From Pedomonas mirosovicensis (GTDB lineage Bacteria; Pseudomonadota; Alphaproteobacteria; Sphingomonadales; Sphingomonadaceae), in assembly GCF_022569295.1 (NCBI RefSeq), contig NZ_JAKFIA010000001.1, positions 1,937,001 through 2,001,000 of the forward strand: DNA of 64,000 bases. The letters run 5' to 3'. How positions within the stretch are numbered: the stretch's first letter is position 1; each line of letters begins with the position of its first letter. The notes below the pieces were generated by a model. It did no database searches. It was not told where the DNA came from and saw nothing but the letters and a program-made list of their open reading frames with translations. The position numbers and the translations under genes are program-made. Positions 1 through 48,253 of this stretch are shown here, one piece after another.

Positions 1-1105
1 CGTATTCGATGGGCGTGCCGGAGAGTTTGATCGGGTTGGCAGCGGTTCGCACCGTGCCGGAGAGCGGGTGGTCCAGCGCCACCGTCAGGCCGCGTGCCTT
101 GGCCTGCTCGCTTTCGAACGCCTCGGCGACGGACGCGACCCTGCCGCACGGAATGCCCGCCGCATCCAGCGCCGCCAGCCAGTGGCCCGCGTCCTCCCGT
201 TTCAATTCAGCCTCGATCAGCGCCACCAGTTCCGCCCTGTGCGCGACGCGGGCCCGGTTGGTGGCATAGCGTTCATCCTGCGCCCATTCAGGCTTGCCCA
301 GAATGCGCGCGAAGCGGCGGAACTGCTCATCATTGCCCACGGCGACAATGATGCGACCATCCTTTGTGGGAAGATCTTGATAGGGCACGATGTTGGGGTG
401 GGCATTGCCCATGAGGCCCGGCACCACGCCGCCCACCAGATAGTTGGTCGCCTGGTTGGCCAGCCAGCCCAGTTGCACATCGAACAGCGCCATGTCGATG
501 TGCTGCCCCTCGCCCGTGCGGTGGCGGGCCTGAAGCGCGGCGAGAATGGCGACGACGGAATAAAGCCCGGTCGTCAGGTCCGTCACCGCCACGCCCACCT
601 TGGTCGGGCCGCTCTCGGGCGTGCCGGTAATGCTCATCAGGCCTGCCATGCCCTGGATGAGAAAATCATAGCCCGGCCGGTTGGCGTTCGGCCCGTTCTG
701 GCCGAACCCGGTGATGGAACAATAGATGAGGCGCGGGTTGATTTTCCGCAACGTCTCGTAATCCAGCCCGTATTTTGCCAGCCCGCCTGTCTTGAAATTC
801 TCCAGAAGCACGTCGCTCTCTGCGGCGAGCTTGCGGATAATCTCCTGCCCTTTGGGGTGCGTAATATCCAGCGCCAGCGAGCGCTTGCCCCGGTTGGCGC
901 AGAGATAATAGGCGCTCTCGCGCGTCGGGTTGCCCTCCTGGTCCTTCAGGAACGGCGGGCCCCAGCCGCGCGTGTCGTCCCCCGCTTTGGGGCGCTCCAC
1001 CTTGATGACATCCGCGCCGAGATCGGCGAGGATCTGCCCCGCCCACGGCCCTGCCAGCACGCGCGACAGATCCAGCACCCTAATTCCCGCCAACGCACCC
1101 GCCAC
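1..1105 (-). CDS. CaiB/BaiF family CoA transferase (3' end beyond window)
   Basis: Class III CoA transferase, expected to move CoA between carboxylic acids. The visible 368 codons begin at a GTG (complement of 1103-1105) behind a good ribosome site, AAGGGGG. The N-terminus reads GIRVLDLSRVLAGPWAGQ, the usual start of the family, and the catalytic Asp is most likely Asp176 in AVTDLTTG. The conserved GEGQHIDMALFD follows at about 199-210. The gene runs off the left edge, so the C-terminus is missing. It lies 28 bases downstream of the crotonase gene on the same strand, so the two are probably cotranscribed and act on the same acyl-CoA; the substrate cannot be read from sequence. Confidence 0.9.
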   Translation of the reverse strand, partial: MAGALAGIRVLDLSRVLAGPWAGQILADLGADVIKVERPKAGDDTRGWGPPFLKDQEGNPTRESAYYLCANRGKRSLALDITHPKGQEIIRKLAAESDVLLENFKTGGLAKYGLDYETLRKINPRLIYCSITGFGQNGPNANRPGYDFLIQGMAGLMSITGTPESGPTKVGVAVTDLTTGLYSVVAILAALQARHRTGEGQHIDMALFDVQLGWLANQATNYLVGGVVPGLMGNAHPNIVPYQDLPTKDGRIIVAVGNDEQFRRFARILGKPEWAQDERYATNRARVAHRAELVALIEAELKREDAGHWLAALDAAGIPCGRVASVAEAFESEQAKARGLTVALDHPLSGTVRTAANPIKLSGTPIEY

Positions 1106-38664: not shown

Positions 38665-41286
38665 TCAATAGCCGAGGTTCGGTCTCAGCCACCGCTCCGC
38701 CTGCTCGACGGAGACGCCGCGCCGCCGCGCGTAATCTTCCACCTGATCCTTGCCGATACGCGCCACGCCAAAATACTGCGCCTGCGGGTGAGACAGGTAA
38801 TAGCCCGAAACCGCGGCCGTCGGCACCATCGCAAAGCTTTCGGTGAGCACGATGCCGGTGTGCTGGCCGGCGTTCAGCAGCCGGAACAGCTCGGGCTTCT
38901 CCGAATGGTCCGGGCAGGCAGGATACCCCGGCGCGGGGCGGATGCCCTGATACTTCTCGCGGATAATCTCCTCATTGCTGAGGGTTTCATCCGCCGCATA
39001 GCCCCAGTATTCCTTGCGGACGCGCTCGTGCATCCGCTCGGCCAGCGCCTCGGCAAGGCGGTCCGCCAGCGCCTTGAGAAGAATATCCGAGTAATCGTCA
39101 TGCGCCGCCTTGAAGCGGGCCAGATGCGCCTCGATGCCATGGCCCGCCGTCACCGCGAAACCGCCCAGATAATCGTTCTCGTGCGCCACATAATCGGCAA
39201 GGCACATGTTGGGTCGCCCTTCCCGCTTGGCGAACTGCTGGCGCAGGAAGTGCACGCGGGAGAGTTCCTTCGTCCGCGCGTCGTCCTCGAACAGGATTAC
39301 ATCGTCGCCATCGCGCGCGGCGGGCCAGAAGCCGATGACAGCCTTGGCGGTCAGCCACTTCTCCTTGATGATTTTCTCCAGCATTGCCTGCGCGTCGGCG
39401 AACAACTGGCTCGCGCTTTCGCCCACCACCTCGTCGGTGAGGATCGCCGGGTAAGTGCCCGCCAGTTCCCACGAGCGGAAGAACGGCGTCCAGTCGATGC
39501 GCTCGACCAGATCCTCCAGCGGATAATCGTCGAACACCTTCGTCCCGAGGAAAGACGGCTTGGGCGGCACATAACCGTCCCATTCAATCTTCGCGCCGTT
39601 GTTCCGCGCCGCCTCCAGCGAGATAAGCTCGGATTCCTTGTTGTTGGCGCGCTTGATGCGGATGGCCTCATACTCGGCCGCCACGTCCGCCACGAAGGCG
39701 TCGCGCCCGGTCTCCGAAACCAGCGCCGTCGCCACGCCCACCGCCCGGCTGGCGTCTAGCACATGAACGGTCGGCCCCTGATAGCAGGGCGCGATTTTCA
39801 GCGCCGTGTGCACCTTGGAGGTGGTCGCGCCGCCGATCATCAGCGGCAGGGTGAACCCCTCGCGGGTCATCTCTTCCGCCACCGTGCACATTTCATCGAG
39901 CGATGGCGTGATGAGGCCGGAGAGGCCGATGATATCCGCGTTATGGTCCTTCGCCGCCTTCAAAATGGTCTGGAACGGCACCATGACGCCAAGGTCAATG
40001 ACCTCGAAATTGTTGCACTGGAGCACGACGCCCACGATGTTCTTGCCGATATCGTGCACATCGCCCTTCACCGTCGCCATGACGACGCGGCCCTTGGCCT
40101 GCTGGCCTTCGGATTTTTCCGCTTCGATGAAGGGAATGAGGTGCGCCACCGCCTTTTTCATCACGCGGGCGGATTTCACCACCTGCGGCAGGAACATCTT
40201 GCCCGCGCCGAACAGATCGCCGACCACGTTCATGCCCGCCATCAGCGGGCCCTCGATCACCTCGATCGGCCGGGCGAACTGCTTGCGCGCCTCCTCCGTG
40301 TCATCGATGACGTGGGCATCAATGCCCTTCACCATCGCATATTCCAACCGCTTGACGACCGGCCAGGAGCGCCATTCCGCTTCCTGCGTTTCCGCCTGCC
40401 CGCCCGCCTCGCGGTATTTCTCGGCAATGTCCAGCAGCCGTTCGGTCGCATCCGCCCGCCGGTTGAGAATCACGTCTTCCACCCGCTCGCGCAGCTCGGC
40501 GGGAATTTCATCGTAAACGTCCAGCTGGCCGGCGTTGACGATGCCCATGTCCATGCCTGCCTGAATGGCATGGTAGAGGAACACCGAATGCATGGCACGG
40601 CGCACCGGCTCGTTGCCGCGGAAGCTGAAGGAGATGTTGGAAACGCCGCCCGAGATTTTCACATGCGGGCAGCGGACCTTGATCTCCCGGCACGCCTCGA
40701 TGAAATCGACGGCGTAGTTGTTGTGCTCATCAATGCCCGTGGCGACCGCGAAGATGTTGGGGTCGAAAATAATGTCCTCGGGCGGCACATGCGCTTTTTG
40801 CGTGAGCAGCTTGTAAGCGCGCTCGCAAATTTCCACCTTGCGCGCGCAGGTGTCCGCCTGCCCCACTTCATCGAACGCCATCACCACCATGGCTGCGCCG
40901 TAGCGGCGCACCAGGCGGGCCTGCTTGAGAAACGCCTCCTCGCCTTCCTTCATGCTGATGGAATTGACGATGGCCTTGCCGGAGACGCACTTGAGGCCGG
41001 TCTCGATCACGCTCCACTTCGAGCTGTCGATCATGATTGGCACGCGGGCGATATCTGGCTCGGCCGCGATCAGCTTGAGGAAGGTCTCCATCGCCTTTTC
41101 GGCGTCCAGCAGACCCTCGTCCATGTTGATGTCGATGATCTGCGCCCCGGCCTCCACCTGCTGGCGCGCCACATCGAGCGCAGCCGTGTAATCGCCCGCG
41201 AGGATCAGCTTCTTGAACCGGGCGGAGCCGGTCACATTGGTGCGCTCGCCAACGTTGATGAAGGTGGCAGTGGCTTGGCTGGTCAT
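38665..41286 (-). CDS. metH: Methionine synthase, C-terminal half (pterin, cobalamin, activation domains)
   Basis: 873 residues from the ATG at 41286. N-terminal pterin-binding barrel ([19 protein letters not shown]), cap, then the cobalamin domain with the lower-ligand His411 in [19 protein letters not shown], and a C-terminal activation domain ([19 protein letters not shown]) for SAM-dependent repair. The homocysteine domain is absent and is encoded by the gene 61 bases upstream. A split MetH of this kind is known in Alphaproteobacteria. It needs vitamin B12; no B12 riboswitch is visible. Confidence 0.95.
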
Positions 41287-41347
41287 TTTTCGATCACGCA
41301 AAACTTGAGGGCGGCATGGGGCTGGCCCTTGCCTGGGAAAATATCGG

Positions 41348-42394
41348 TCAGGCGGCGAAAGCCTCAAGGCCGGAAAGGCGCAGCCGCGGCTCGGGATGCG
41401 GAATGGCCCGCGGCGGCAGGCCCGTCACGGCCTCGTTTATCCGGGCAATGTGCGCGGGCGTCGTACCGCAGCAGCCGCCAACCACATTGATGAGGCCGTG
41501 CTCCGCCCAGTCCGCGATCAGGCGGCCGGTGGTCTCCGGCAGTTCGTCATATTCGCCCATCTCGTTCGGCAGGCCGGCGTTTGGATAGACGCACAGCAGC
41601 GTGTCGGTAATCTTGGCGAGCGTCGTCACATAAGGGCGCAGCTCGGTCGCGCCGAACGAACAGTTGAGCCCCATGGTCAGCGGGCGGGCATGGCTCACCG
41701 CGTGCCAGAAGGCCTCGACCGTCTGCCCGGAGAGATTGCGGCCGGACATGTCGGTCAGCGTCATCGAGACCATGACCGGAATTTCCTCGCCCCTCGCCTC
41801 GGCCGCCTCATCCACCGCCACCAGCGCCGCCTTGGCGTTGAGCGTGTCGAACACCGTCTCGACGAGAATGAAATCAACGCCGCCATCGAGCAGGCCATCG
41901 ATCTGCTGGCGGTAGACGTCCTTCATCTCATCGAAGCTGACTTCGCGGAAGCCGGGGTTGTTCACATCCGGCGAGACGGAAAGCGTCTTGTTGGTGGGGC
42001 CGATCGCGCCCGCGACGAACCGGGGCCGCTCGGGCGTTGAGTATTCATCCACCAGCGCGCGGGTCAGCTTCGCCGCCGCCACATTGATATCGTAGGTCAG
42101 GTCTTCCGTGCCGTAGTCGGCCTGGCTGATGCGGTTGGCGTTGAAGGTGTTGGTGGCCAGTACATCCGCGCCTGCTTCCAGATATTGGCGGCAGATGCCG
42201 GCGATATCGTCGGGGCGGGTGAGGTTGAGCAGGTCGTTGTTGCCCTTCTGGTCGCGCGTGAAATCGCGGCCGGCGCGAAAATCCGTTTCCGTCAGCTTCA
42301 GCCGCTGGATGGCGGTCCCATAAGGACCATCCTTCACCAGAATGCGGGCGGCGGCCGCCTGCTTAAATTGCTCTGCCTTCTGCGCCCTGTTCAT
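41348..42394 (-). CDS. Methionine synthase, N-terminal homocysteine methyltransferase half
   Basis: 348 residues from the ATG at 42394, which shares ATGA with the metF stop and has a GGAGGTTGC ribosome site. The homocysteine S-methyltransferase barrel has its zinc ligands in GLNCSFGA and [31 protein letters not shown] is also typical. It must act with the C-terminal MetH half encoded next. A frame starting 18 codons upstream has no support. Usually called metH too. Confidence 0.94.
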
Positions 42395-43314
42395 GCCGCA
42401 ACCTCCACATCCGGCGCTGTTGCGGGCCGCACCCCCAGAAGGTGGCAAATGGCCCCGGTCAGCTCAGCCCGGTTCAACGTATAGAAATGAAATTCTCGAA
42501 TGCCGCGCTGATAGAGCCGCGCGCACAGCTCCGCCGCGATGGTGGCAGAAACCAGTTGCCGCGTTTGCGGCCGGTCGTCCAGCCCGTCGAACAGGCGGCC
42601 CATCCAATCGGGCACGCTCGCGCCGCACAGCTCCGCCATGCGCTTCAGCTGAGCAAAATTGGTGACCGGCAAAATGCCCGGCACCACCGGCACCTCAATG
42701 CCCGCCGCCAGCGCCAGATCCACAAACCGCAGGTAGCAGTCGGGATCGAAAAAGAACTGGGTGATGGCCCGGCTTGCGCCCGCATCGACCTTGCGCTTCA
42801 GGTTTTCGATATCGGCAATGCGCGAGGGGCTGTCCGGGTGGCACTCGGGATAGGCGCCGACGCTGATTTCGAACGGCGCGATTTTTCTCAGGCCCGCCAC
42901 CAGATCGGCCGCACAGGTGTACCCCTCGGGGTGCGGCACGAACGGCGTGTTGATGCCGGTCGGCATATCGCCCCGCAACGCCACGATGTGACGAACGCCG
43001 CTGTCCCAGTAGGCCCTCGCCACCTCATCCACTTCATCCCGGCTGGCGGCAACGCAGGTCAGGTGCGCCGCGGGCACGAGGCTGGTTTCATTCAGGATGC
43101 GGGTGACGGTGTTGTGCGTGCGCTCGCGCGTCGAGCCGCCCGCGCCATAGGTGACGGAGACGAACCGCGGGTTCAGCGGCTCCAGCGTCTTGACGGAATT
43201 CCACAGCGTCTCTTCCATCTTTTCCGTCTTAGGCGGAAAGAACTCAAAGGACACGCCGATATCGCCGGGTACATCGGCGAACAGCGGGCGGAAGCTCGGG
43301 GTCAGGGGGTTCAT
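42391..43314 (-). CDS. metF: 5,10-methylenetetrahydrofolate reductase
   Basis: 307 residues. FAD-dependent reduction of methylene-tetrahydrofolate to the methyl form used by MetH. GVSFEFFPPKTEKMEETLW at the N-terminus and VTYGAGGSTRERTHNTVT are family motifs, and ITQFFFDPDCYLRF is the folate segment. It is translationally coupled to the methyltransferase gene (ATGA) and follows the ArsR-fusion gene by 15 bases, so the four genes form one operon. Confidence 0.95.
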   Translation of the reverse strand: MNPLTPSFRPLFADVPGDIGVSFEFFPPKTEKMEETLWNSVKTLEPLNPRFVSVTYGAGGSTRERTHNTVTRILNETSLVPAAHLTCVAASRDEVDEVARAYWDSGVRHIVALRGDMPTGINTPFVPHPEGYTCAADLVAGLRKIAPFEISVGAYPECHPDSPSRIADIENLKRKVDAGASRAITQFFFDPDCYLRFVDLALAAGIEVPVVPGILPVTNFAQLKRMAELCGASVPDWMGRLFDGLDDRPQTRQLVSATIAAELCARLYQRGIREFHFYTLNRAELTGAICHLLGVRPATAPDVEVAA

Positions 43315-43329
43315 GGGCTTGCCTTATCC

Positions 43330-44265
43330 TTATTTCTTTTCGCCGAGCCACAATGTCACGGTCAGTTCGCTTCCCTGCAGATGCTCCGCAACCCTTGCCT
43401 TGAGACCAGCGGCCTCCATCCATTCCGTAACCTGCCGGTCCGAAAATCCAAGACGGCGATGGGCATGTTCCTCGCGCAGGAATTCCTTATCGTGCGGAGC
43501 GAAGTCCGCCACCAGCAGCCGCCCTTCGGGACGCAACACCCGCGCGGCTTCCTGTATGGCCGCCTGCGGCTCCTCCGCATAGTGCAGCACCTGATGAATA
43601 ACGACGGCATCATAAACCGCCGTGCCGTTGAGCGCATACATGTCGCCCATGCGAACCTGCACGTTGCGAAGCTCCGCCGCCTCCAGCCGGGTGCGGGCGA
43701 ACTTGAGCATTTCCTGGCTGGTATCGATGCCGACGGCGCGACTGACATGCGGGCCCAGCACCTCGAGAATGCGGCCGGTGCCGGTGCCGATGTCCAGCAG
43801 GTTCTCCACCGGCTTTGCCATCAGGTGGCGGATGATCGCATCCTCCACCTCCCGCTCGGAAATGTAGAGGGAGCGCACCTGATCCCACTCTTCGGCGTGC
43901 TCGGAGAAATAGGCGTTGGCGCGGCTCACCCGCTCCGCCTGCACATCCTTCAGCCGGGCAATGTCCCCGCACAGCGTCGGATCATCAGCGGGCACCAAAA
44001 CATCCAGCATCCGGCGCAGGATTTCGGCCAGCTCCCCTTCCGCCAGGCGGAAGAACACCCACGCCCCTTCCTTGTGGCGCTCCACCAGGCCGGCATCGAC
44101 CAGGATTTTCAGATGCCGCGACACCCGTGGCTGGCTTTGCCGCAGGATCCGTGTCAGATCGCTGACGGCCAATTCGCCATAGTGCAGCAACGCCAGGATT
44201 CGCAGGCGGCTGGGGTCGGCCGAGGCCTTGAGAACTGTGAGGGCTGCTTCCATACATGTGGACAT
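43330..44265 (-). CDS. ArsR-family winged helix fused to a SAM-dependent methyltransferase
   Basis: About 311 residues from the ATG at 44265; ATG 44253 and TTG 44289 are alternatives. The N-terminal 90 residues are an ArsR DNA-binding domain (SADPSRLRILALLHYGELAVSD, RILRQSQPRVSRHLKIL) and the rest a class I methyltransferase (NLLDIGTGTGRILEVLG, HQVLHYAEEPQAAIQEAARVL). It heads metF-metH, and a 20-base palindrome covers its start, so it most likely represses itself and the operon in response to SAM or SAH. That sensing role is inferred from related SahR-type regulators. Confidence 0.9.
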   Translation of the reverse strand: MSTCMEAALTVLKASADPSRLRILALLHYGELAVSDLTRILRQSQPRVSRHLKILVDAGLVERHKEGAWVFFRLAEGELAEILRRMLDVLVPADDPTLCGDIARLKDVQAERVSRANAYFSEHAEEWDQVRSLYISEREVEDAIIRHLMAKPVENLLDIGTGTGRILEVLGPHVSRAVGIDTSQEMLKFARTRLEAAELRNVQVRMGDMYALNGTAVYDAVVIHQVLHYAEEPQAAIQEAARVLRPEGRLLVADFAPHDKEFLREEHAHRRLGFSDRQVTEWMEAAGLKARVAEHLQGSELTVTLWLGEKK

Positions 44266-44281
44266 AAAGATATCTTTATGT
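44262..44281. promoter_or_regulatory. 20-base perfect palindrome, candidate operator of the met operon
   Basis: ACATAAAGATATCTTTATGT is exactly its own complement. It overlaps the start codon of the ArsR-fusion gene. ArsR-type regulators bind such short AT-rich palindromes, so it is the best candidate operator. No second copy was seen upstream of metA. Confidence 0.7.
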
Positions 44282-44409
44282 TGCGTCAATAGATCGATAG
44301 ACGCCAGAACGACTGGGCGCGCAAAACGTTCACCCGTTCAGGGTAGCCGGTGGCGCAAGGCGACGATCCGCCCAGGCAGGCGGCGCCAAATCCAACTGTC
44401 AGGAAAGAA

Positions 44410-46035
44410 TCAGGCGGCAGGCAGCAGAACGGTGAAGCGCGCGCCCAGCCCGACCTTGCTGTCGAGCGAAATGTCGCCGCCCATGAGCCGCGCCAGCCGG
44501 CGGGAGATGTGGAGGCCAAGCCCCGTGCCTTCCGGCTTGCCGGTGTAGGTATCGCCCACGCACTGCTGGAACTTCTCGAACACGCGCTCGTGATTTTCCG
44601 GCGCGATACCGGTGCCGGTATCCCACACGGTGAAGGCCACCATGGGCGTCGCGCCGGGCATGTGGGCAACATCGAGGCCGATGCGCCCGCCCTCCGGCGT
44701 GAACTTGACCGCGTTGGTGAGAAGGTTGACCAGGATCTGGAGCGCGCGCCGCTCGTCCGCCATCACGCGGACCGAAGGGTCGCAGCGCACGGCGCTGAGG
44801 TCGATGGACTTGGCCTCGGCGCGCAGCAGCAGGAGACTCCGGGCCTGATCCACCAGCGGGGCAAGGCTCATGCCCTCCAGCGTCAGGGTCAGCTCGCCGC
44901 TCTCGATCACGCTGACATCCAGCACGTCGTTGATGAGGCCGAGGAGATGATAGCCCGCCGTGACGATATCGTTGGCGTAGGCCACGTAATGGGGCTGCAA
45001 ATCGCCGAACACCTGCATCTGCATGGCCTCGGCAAAGCCGATGATGGCATTGAGCGGCGTGCGAAGCTCATGGCTCATGGAGGCCAGGAACTCGTTCTTC
45101 GCCTCCAGCGCCAGCCGCGCCTGCTCGGAGGCCACGTCGAGCGCGGTGTTCTTCTTGGTCAGCTCGGCCAGCGCGTCTTCCAGATTGCGGTGGGCGCTGC
45201 GGGTCTGCTCCTCCATCAGGTAGGTGCGCGTCACGTCCATGCCGACGCCGCGATAACCCCGGAATGCCCCGGCGTCATCGAACACCGGCACGCCCGCCAG
45301 ATGGAAGAGGATGGCATCCCCGGCCGCGTCCTCCATCACCATCAGCTGGTTGCGGAACGGCGCATGGGTGGCGACAGCCCTCTCGAACGGCATGTCGCCG
45401 GCCATGTTGGCCTCGAACCGCCCCAGGGACTGGAGCGGCTTGCCGATGAGCATGGCGACCGGACTGCCGATCAGCGCCGTCAGCCGGTCGGAGAGCGCCG
45501 TCAGGCGCTGAAGCTCGTCGATTTCCCAGAACCAGTCGGACGAGGCGCGGGCGAAATCGCGGAAGCGGGCCTGATCCATGATCGCCGACTGGGTGCGGTT
45601 GACCTGGGCAGTCGCCTCCTGCAGCGTTCCCGTCACGCCCACCACCCGGCCGCCATCGCCGCGCATCGGCGTGAAATTGGCCCAGTAGTGGCGAACGACG
45701 CCGCCCACGGTGACGCTGAGCGAGCGGTTGACCTGCCGTCCCCACAGCAGCGCCGCGTCGATGCCAGTCTGGAACGATGGAATCCCCACCTCCGCCTCGC
45801 TGCCGCCGCAGGCGAGATTCAACTGGCGAAAGGCCTCGTTACAGTCCACCACCCGGCCGTTCCGGTCGGCCTTGAACAGCAGCGTATTGGCCTCATTCTC
45901 AAGGGAATGGACCGTCGCGGACGTCGCCTCGTTCTTCTGATCCCCCTGCTGTTCGGGCGTCCGGCGGGCCGAGCGCAAGGGGGGAAGCACCAGCACCGGC
46001 CCTGTCTCATTCGAGCCGGAGTCAATCCGCCCCAT
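44410..46035 (-). CDS. PAS-domain sensor histidine kinase (soluble)
   Basis: 541 residues from the ATG at 46035, which has a GGGGTG ribosome site and overlaps the upstream DUF2336 stop by 14 bases. Two PAS-like regions (ANTLLFKADRNGRVVDCNEAF; DWFWEIDELQRLTALSDRL) precede the phosphorylation His in SHELRTPLNAIIGFAEAMQ and an ATPase domain (NLLTNAVKFTPEGG, DTGTGI, GTGLGLHISRRL). There are no membrane helices, so it is cytosolic. No partner receiver is beside it. Coupling to DUF2336 suggests a joint role. Confidence 0.9.
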   Translation of the reverse strand: MGRIDSGSNETGPVLVLPPLRSARRTPEQQGDQKNEATSATVHSLENEANTLLFKADRNGRVVDCNEAFRQLNLACGGSEAEVGIPSFQTGIDAALLWGRQVNRSLSVTVGGVVRHYWANFTPMRGDGGRVVGVTGTLQEATAQVNRTQSAIMDQARFRDFARASSDWFWEIDELQRLTALSDRLTALIGSPVAMLIGKPLQSLGRFEANMAGDMPFERAVATHAPFRNQLMVMEDAAGDAILFHLAGVPVFDDAGAFRGYRGVGMDVTRTYLMEEQTRSAHRNLEDALAELTKKNTALDVASEQARLALEAKNEFLASMSHELRTPLNAIIGFAEAMQMQVFGDLQPHYVAYANDIVTAGYHLLGLINDVLDVSVIESGELTLTLEGMSLAPLVDQARSLLLLRAEAKSIDLSAVRCDPSVRVMADERRALQILVNLLTNAVKFTPEGGRIGLDVAHMPGATPMVAFTVWDTGTGIAPENHERVFEKFQQCVGDTYTGKPEGTGLGLHISRRLARLMGGDISLDSKVGLGARFTVLLPAA

Positions 46036-47320: not shown

Positions 47321-48253
47321 TCAGCCCCGCGCCCGATCTTCCTGCAGGATGCCGAGATCAAACGGCGTGTCGCGATAAAGGCAGGTGATCCAGTTCCAGA
47401 ACAGCATATGGGCGAAGGGCCGCCACTGGTTCATGGGCATGCGCTGCGGATCATCGCTGGGGAAGTAGCCATGCGGCACCGGCGTCGTCGGGTCGGCCGC
47501 CACGTCGCGGAAATACTCACCCTTCAGCGTGTCCGTGTCATATTCAAGATGGTTGAACATGAACAGGTCGCCATTGGCGTCGTCCTGCACCAGACAGATG
47601 CCGGTATCGGGCGAGTCCGCCAGAATCCGCAAATGCGGGTGCCCGGCGATATCCTCGTGCCGCACCCCGCTCCAGCGCGACACGGGGGCCGGGAAGGCAT
47701 CGGGGAAGCCGCGCAGCAGCGGCACGTCCGGCGCGCGCACGGTTTGCGGGTAGATGCCCGACAGCTTGCAATCGAAGTGCTCCTTGTCGACGCCATATCC
47801 GGCGTAGAGCGCCGCCAGCGCGCCCCAGCAGATGCCGAAGCGCCGGAACACATTGGTGCGGGACCACGCGAAGATGTCCAGGAACTCGGGCCAGTAGGCC
47901 ACGTCGTCGTAGGCCATGGTCTCCACCGGCGCGCCGGTGATAATCATGGCGTCGAAGCGCTCCGCCCGCACCTCGTCGAGCGTGCGATAGAAGGCCTGCA
48001 GATGTTCGATCGGCGTGTTGCGCGGGGTGTAGCTGGCGGTGGTGAGCAGCGACAGCTCCACCTGCAGCGGCGTGTGGCTCAGCAGCCGGGCGATCTGCAC
48101 CTCGGTTGCGATCTTGGTCGGCATGAGGTTGAGCAGCAAGATTCGCAACGGGCGGATATCCTGCCGGAGGGCAACGCCTTCCGGGATCAGTTCCACTCCT
48201 TCACTACGCAGCACGGCTTCCGCGGGGGAGCCATCGGGAATCTTGATTGGCAT
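47321..48253 (-). CDS. metA: Homoserine O-acetyltransferase (MetA family, Glu111 type)
   Basis: 310 residues. Activates homoserine for methionine synthesis. The nucleophile is Cys142 in FGICWGALAAL, with the His in FNHLEYDTDTL. Residue 111, which selects the acyl donor, is Glu (TGAPVETM); in this family Gly111 goes with succinyl-CoA and Glu111 with acetyl-CoA, so acetyl-CoA is predicted in spite of the usual 'succinyltransferase' label. Monocistronic; a leader with partial SAM-II resemblance precedes it. Confidence 0.92.
   Translation of the reverse strand: MPIKIPDGSPAEAVLRSEGVELIPEGVALRQDIRPLRILLLNLMPTKIATEVQIARLLSHTPLQVELSLLTTASYTPRNTPIEHLQAFYRTLDEVRAERFDAMIITGAPVETMAYDDVAYWPEFLDIFAWSRTNVFRRFGICWGALAALYAGYGVDKEHFDCKLSGIYPQTVRAPDVPLLRGFPDAFPAPVSRWSGVRHEDIAGHPHLRILADSPDTGICLVQDDANGDLFMFNHLEYDTDTLKGEYFRDVAADPTTPVPHGYFPSDDPQRMPMNQWRPFAHMLFWNWITCLYRDTPFDLGILQEDRARG

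Follow-up and report, generated by a model that had tools for sequence, protein, structure and literature searches.

A probable SahR-type regulator with a fused methyltransferase domain at the head of the metF-metH operon of Pedomonas mirosovicensis

The regulator gene and its operon

The DNA analysed here is a 64-kb stretch of the Pedomonas mirosovicensis genome, referred to as the window. It carries, on the reverse strand, a regulator gene followed by genes of the methyl cycle in the order sahR, 15 bp, metF, metH1 and metH2, with metF and metH1 joined in the sequence by an ATGA overlap (Table 1). The regulator is encoded in a single frame of 307 amino acids that holds both an ArsR winged helix (residues 13–58; PF01022, E 6.1e-16) and a class I methyltransferase domain (residues 153–248; PF08241, E 1.5e-21), and its score of 88.4 bits with the model NF033788 lies above the cut-off of 55. 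The first-pass annotation of this DNA had described an ArsR-methyltransferase fusion heading metF-metH, and both the fusion and its position are borne out.

Table 1. Features of the sahR-metF-metH locus (window coordinates; protein domains in residues of SahR)
Feature	Position	Strand	Evidence
SahR-type operator (predicted), exact 20-bp palindrome ACATAAAGATATCTTTATGT	44262..44281	.	sequence search; conserved upstream of orthologues
sahR, likely start codon ATG	44251..44253	(-)	N-terminal alignment of 29 sequences; no upstream in-frame start in L008, L018, L020, L022
sahR orthologue	43330..44253	(-)	ORF, Pfam, AlphaFold model, orthologues
SahR, ArsR winged helix	residues ~1–72		
SahR, linker helix	residues 92–127		
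SahR, class I SAM/SAH-binding methyltransferase domain	residues ~133–307		
metF, methylenetetrahydrofolate reductase	42391..43314	(-)	PF02219 E 3.8e-95; NF006950 388.7 bits, cut-off 382
metH1, homocysteine S-methyltransferase part	41348..42394	(-)	PF02574; NF007024 positions 5–352
metH2, remaining methionine synthase (pterin, B12, activation domains); coordinates counted from the first in-frame ATG	38665..41286	(-)	PF00809, PF02607, PF02310, PF02965; NF007024 positions 352–1231

Methionine synthase is split in this region (38665–42394), metH1 carrying the homocysteine domain and metH2 the pterin, B12 and activation domains. The gene metA (homoserine O-acyltransferase; 47321–48253) is found 3 kb from the operon. 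With neither the acetyl nor the succinyl model does its score reach the cut-off, and it shows no SahR-type site at up to 3 mismatches.

The AlphaFold model of the regulator (mean pLDDT 92.2; pTM 0.85) shows the two domains joined by the long linker helix. According to this model, the C-terminal domain has the fold of class I SAM-dependent methyltransferases; their SAM-binding motif is kept in its sequence. VIA-align superimposed NodS with bound SAH (3ofk_B) onto the model with a Z score of 23.5 and an rmsd of 2.4 over 188 residues, and the VIA-align matches cover mainly residues 60–307. The best Foldseek matches (Rv2258c, SgvM and others) span both domains only at an rmsd of about 20; the parts are thus common to these proteins and SahR, and the domain arrangement differs. 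Among the PDB sequence matches listed (60 of 65), most cover a single domain, and 4z2y (CalO6) matches residues 16–250 (E 2.3e-4). The route from a ligand in the methyltransferase pocket to release by the winged helix is of interest here, as no solved ArsR-methyltransferase fusion is found among the listed PDB sequence (60 of 65), Foldseek and VIA-align matches.

The palindrome and its recurrence

An exact palindrome of 20 bases, ACATAAAGATATCTTTATGT (10 of 10 pairs), is present as the first-pass annotation had stated, and it is the longest perfect palindrome within the window. Base composition predicts about 0.15 perfect palindromes of at least 20 bp per 64 kb, so that palindromy alone is weak evidence. 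A second match with up to 3 mismatches was found nowhere in the window (shuffles, 0/100). The same annotation had placed the palindrome over the start codon of the regulator. Three in-frame starts come into consideration, namely TTG 44289, ATG 44265, which lies within the palindrome, and ATG 44253. Alignments of the orthologues begin at about ATG 44253, and four orthologous loci (L008, L018, L020, L022) have no in-frame start codon further upstream. Both observations favour ATG 44253, and the earlier placement is probably wrong. With translation probably starting at ATG 44253, the palindrome would lie wholly upstream and end 8 bp before sahR. In Sinorhizobium (S.) meliloti the gene is annotated to begin 8 residues earlier, and there too the operator is entirely upstream of its start. 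A sigma-70 scan of positions 44200–44450 gave no promoter above threshold; by eye, a TTGACG is seen 17 bases before a TATGTC, straddling the palindrome, and is too weak to claim as a promoter.

The host genome (3.63 Mb) was searched with the 16-bp core of the palindrome at up to 2 mismatches, the pattern read backwards serving as control. Four sites were returned and none with the control. All four stand, in the right orientation, before genes of the SAM cycle: the sahR-metF-metH operon, ahcY, metK and metE. Copies before met genes besides its own operon, which the first-pass annotation had suggested looking for, therefore exist. The ahcY site is a second exact copy of the core, the metK site (2 mismatches, 7/10 pairs) lies 77 bp before the MetK match, and the metE site (2 mismatches, 8/10 pairs) 352 bp before metE. 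As a result, ahcY, metH, metH2, metF, metK and sahR each have a predicted site or stand in an operon behind one. At 3 mismatches five sites, the additional one at C1:1913972, compare with three for the backwards control, and this threshold is accordingly not useful.

The host metE is located on the second contig (L004 1501–1869; G000:C2:716214 onward). Its SahR-type site is followed after 28 bp by a cobalamin riboswitch (RF00174, 131.4 bits). The position of this element between the site and metE suggests double control, so that metE appears to be under a two-key control by SAH and B12. Rfam gave no hit at gathering score in the window, neither for the SAH (RF01057) and SAM_alpha (RF00521) riboswitches nor for any other family. 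Genome-wide, with 150 first-look candidates scored per genome, RF01057 had no match in the host and none in 14 controls either, and RF00521 had no match in the host and was found in G028. The first-pass annotation had contrasted the system with riboswitches. RNA control does occur in the network, given that metE has both the operator and the cobalamin riboswitch.

To what extent gene and site are conserved was examined in 40 genomes, including the host (matches at E ≤ 0.001, orthologues counted by coverage). Some match is present in all 40, in many cases to one domain only. A full-length single orthologue occurs in 35, the gene is in pieces in two (G007, G035), and three are without it (G008, G014, G017). 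The two pieces in G007 (G007:C1:2367492-2368408) overlap slightly, covering residues 1–204 and 202–306, as expected of a frameshift or a broken gene. Among the 30 loci fetched (host included), the site precedes the orthologue in 28 at up to 2 mismatches and in 29 at up to 3. All 30 have metF downstream, and metH1 follows within the stretch in 28, the remaining two stretches ending too early.

Sites were then counted genome-wide at up to 2 mismatches in the host and in 10 of the 39 relatives, which were selected among the carriers of the gene and did not include G007 and G035. Of 43 sites, 31 are upstream of sahR, ahcY, metK or metE; in the 10 relatives 39 sites compare with 4 for the backwards control. 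The other 12, having none of the tested SAM-cycle genes adjoining, come from G027 (7), G036 (4) and G030 (1), whose GC contents, measured at the loci only, are 0.46, 0.54 and 0.49, respectively, against about 0.65 for G003 and the host. These sites are probably chance occurrences in less GC-rich genomes. One of them, a G027 site with 1 mismatch (L038), lies inside an ORF that was read by eye as an oxidoreductase, after a thiolase-like ORF, and was counted as not associated. In the three same-family genomes without the gene no site was found at up to 2 mismatches.

These counts bear on the possibility that the palindrome arose by chance and that the fusion, a methyltransferase working on its own, stands before metF by coincidence. 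The expectation of about 0.15 such palindromes in 64 kb leaves room for it. Yet the recurrence of copies before SAM-cycle genes speaks for a real palindrome: the site returns before ahcY, metK, metE and the orthologous genes, and sites and gene are jointly absent from G008, G014 and G017. We consider a chance repeat extremely improbable.

A wider scan of species genomes, restricted to the best 80 of 583 matching stretches and thus to close relatives, gave the same picture. The matches listed include Azospirillum, Mesorhizobium, Sneathiella, Kiloniella, Phyllobacterium, Allosphingosinicella and many metagenome-assembled genomes. For these 80 of 583 loci the site is found upstream in 77 at up to 2 mismatches and in 79 at up to 3, while control stretches inside genes never came below 5 mismatches; metF is downstream in 77, the exceptions being L085, where the contig ends, L105 and L137. 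Four named genomes contain 14 sites (backwards control, 1). Ten of the 12 sites fetched from them are before clear sahR, ahcY, metK or metH genes; the contexts inspected did not include the G043 site C12:76641. A separate site for metH is present in the Nitrospirillum and Phyllobacterium genomes. Two sites of Mesorhizobium amorphae CCNWGS0123 (L159, L163) precede genes that are 30% identical to MetH1 and 26% identical to MetH2; these may belong to a branch for betaine or another methyl donor that SahR controls.

Plasmid and chromid records contain 13 further relatives, and in all six that come with an annotated feature the label is metalloregulator ArsR/SmtB. The S. meliloti pSymB gene (UIJ93965.1; 1023 bp) is an orthologue with 46.9% identity over 311 columns; it has metF next to it and a site one mismatch off the core. 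Plasmid p2 of Novosphingobium sp. ES2-1 (L167), typed as conjugative, contains the whole regulator-metF-metH1-metH operon. A distant relative with 29% identity over 94% of the query occurs in Leptospira interrogans (NZ_CP020413.2, NZ_CP043881.1).

Effector, catalysis and the arsenic reading

SahR, a regulator of the ArsR family that responds to SAH and recognises a palindrome of 20 bp, is described as occurring mostly in alpha- and deltaproteobacteria (Leyn et al. 2014, PMC4239095). The SahR features that can be judged from sequence are found here, and the gene at 43330..44253 is very probably the SahR of this host, a repressor of its own operon and of ahcY, metK and metE that would be released by SAH. 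Repression and the identity of the effector are adopted from the published family. The first-pass annotation had proposed a methyltransferase fold that may bind SAM or SAH and so gate DNA binding. As far as sensing and gating go, this is in line with SahR as published; it is not new, and the published effector is SAH.

In the mechanism that we envisage, a SahR dimer would bind the palindrome through its ArsR winged helices and repress sahR-metF-metH1-metH2 and, via the further sites, ahcY, metK and metE. The methyltransferase domain would serve as the sensor pocket, to be occupied by SAH as its level rises, presumably with no need for catalysis. The published role being that of a SAH-responsive repressor, SAH most likely releases SahR from DNA rather than tightening its binding. 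Once loaded with SAH, the protein would lose its hold on DNA, and SAH removal (ahcY) would be switched on together with homocysteine remethylation (metF, metH, metE) and SAM synthesis (metK).

Alternatively, the effector might be SAM or the SAM:SAH ratio, the SAM-bound protein acting as the repressor; the protein would still be a member of the SahR family. The pocket motifs fit SAM as well as SAH; the genes for making methionine and SAM (metF, metH, metK and metE) each have a site of their own or one ahead of their operon; and the SahR-like SamR of Xanthomonadales has been suggested to respond to SAM (PMC4239095). For SamR, however, SAM was argued from the absence of the other SAM-cycle genes from its regulons, and the effector of SahR itself is published as SAH (PMC4239095). 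In the host the second exact core copy stands before ahcY, the gene of SAH hydrolase. SAM as the effector is therefore unlikely.

A different function has been proposed for a similar fusion. In Brevundimonas sp. M20 the fusion of a 'metRFHH' cluster was reported to act as an arsenite methyltransferase and to bind at its own promoter (Li et al. 2023, PMC10190100). Applied to the host, this would make the protein a bifunctional ArsR-M, an arsenic-linked regulator whose second domain methylates arsenite. The Brevundimonas fusion heads an operon of arsR-M, metF, HMT-1 and metH. The findings reported are binding to its own promoter in EMSA, resistance of E. coli to arsenite and, in a coupled methyltransferase assay, activity with arsenite (PMC10190100), and the authors propose mainly non-cysteine contacts to arsenite, so that a lack of cysteines is no full exclusion.

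The host protein, on the other hand, scores 47.8 of 263 bits with the arsenite methyltransferase model NF008823, and all four host sites at up to 2 mismatches are located at SAM-cycle genes. It has a single cysteine, C95, which no other member of the 30-row alignment shares; 3 of the 30 rows have a cysteine in the neighbouring column 94, and 4 have none at all. Positions 29 and 31, at which ligands sit in cysteine-type ArsR sensors, are cysteine in 0 of 30 rows, as is position 131, where we place C134 of the Brevundimonas protein. In a larger alignment of 110 rows (the best 80 of 583 plus the 30 other loci; duplicates were kept, L012 and L101 possibly being the same record), 26 rows lack cysteine altogether and the commonest cysteine column holds 62. 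In the same 110 rows the SAM/SAH pocket residues D154, G156, G158, D177 and D204 are kept in 108–110. With cysteines not conserved and the pocket near-invariant, arsenic chemistry that depends on cysteine is no trait of the SahR family. Cysteine-based sensing of arsenic or metals was likewise thought unlikely, since the conserved cysteine ligands of an ArsR metalloregulator or of ArsM were not found. Given the mainly non-cysteine contacts proposed by the Brevundimonas authors, the arsenite claim is weakened by this, not refuted. For the host, the reading as ArsR-M appears very unlikely.

It may be asked whether the methyltransferase domain of SahR is a live enzyme as well as a receptor. H254, R260, H265, L268, G269 and F270 are outside the SAM-binding motifs and are kept in 108–110 of the 110 rows (including the best 80 of 583). 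This is close to the invariance of the pocket, as if an acceptor site had been kept. This conservation does not show catalysis, and we consider enzymatic activity rather unlikely. H224 and D250 are invariant in the family too but are not counted here, being equally present in the stand-alone YcgJ. Were the domain active, SahR could read the methylation potential through turnover on some acceptor, and the arsenite methylation reported for Brevundimonas could be a side reaction of this activity.

Comparison with known systems

The founding paper on SahR is that of Novichkov et al. from 2014.

The literature knows fusions at the head of this operon by two names, SahR and ArsR-M, with a different function attached to each. 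The Brevundimonas protein resembles that of the host in being an ArsR-methyltransferase fusion, in the order of the four genes and in the palindrome in its own promoter (PMC10190100). By gene order and description, rather than by sequence, it is probably a SahR orthologue, although the article describing it does not appear to mention SahR (PMC10190100). It differs in that the half-sites of its named palindrome, CTTTATATAAAG, are in opposite order to those of the host core, and in that its C134 has no cysteine counterpart in the host (PMC10190100). The arsenite-dependent activity and the reversed half-sites speak against plainly equating ArsR-M with SahR.

SamR of Xanthomonadales is SahR-like and found beside metH genes, as is the host protein, but its palindrome has 24 bp and ahcY is outside its regulon (PMC4239095). 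For the S. meliloti orthologue, the sequence identity, one-mismatch site and adjoining metF given above are points in common with the host; it is 33 residues longer, and in the sequence examined metF is followed by a gene other than metH. An entry 'sahR (1023)' in a paper on Ensifer aridi LMR001 (PMC8877191) is taken here as a gene length, equal to the 1023 bp in S. meliloti; expression of this sahR was highest in the deletion strain of that paper (PMC8877191).

The core regulon published for SahR consists of sahR, ahcY, metH, metH2, metF and metK, with metE included in 29% of the SahR-bearing genomes of four groups (PMC4239095). All seven are also predicted targets in the host, and the ArsR winged helix, the length of the palindrome (20 bp; the comparison does not extend to the letters of the motif) and the occurrence in Alphaproteobacteria are likewise shared (PMC4239095). 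No essential difference from the SahR of that study was found, the host adding a cobalamin riboswitch at metE (PMC4239095). Rather than a new design, the host gene thus adds one genome to the known SahR regulon.
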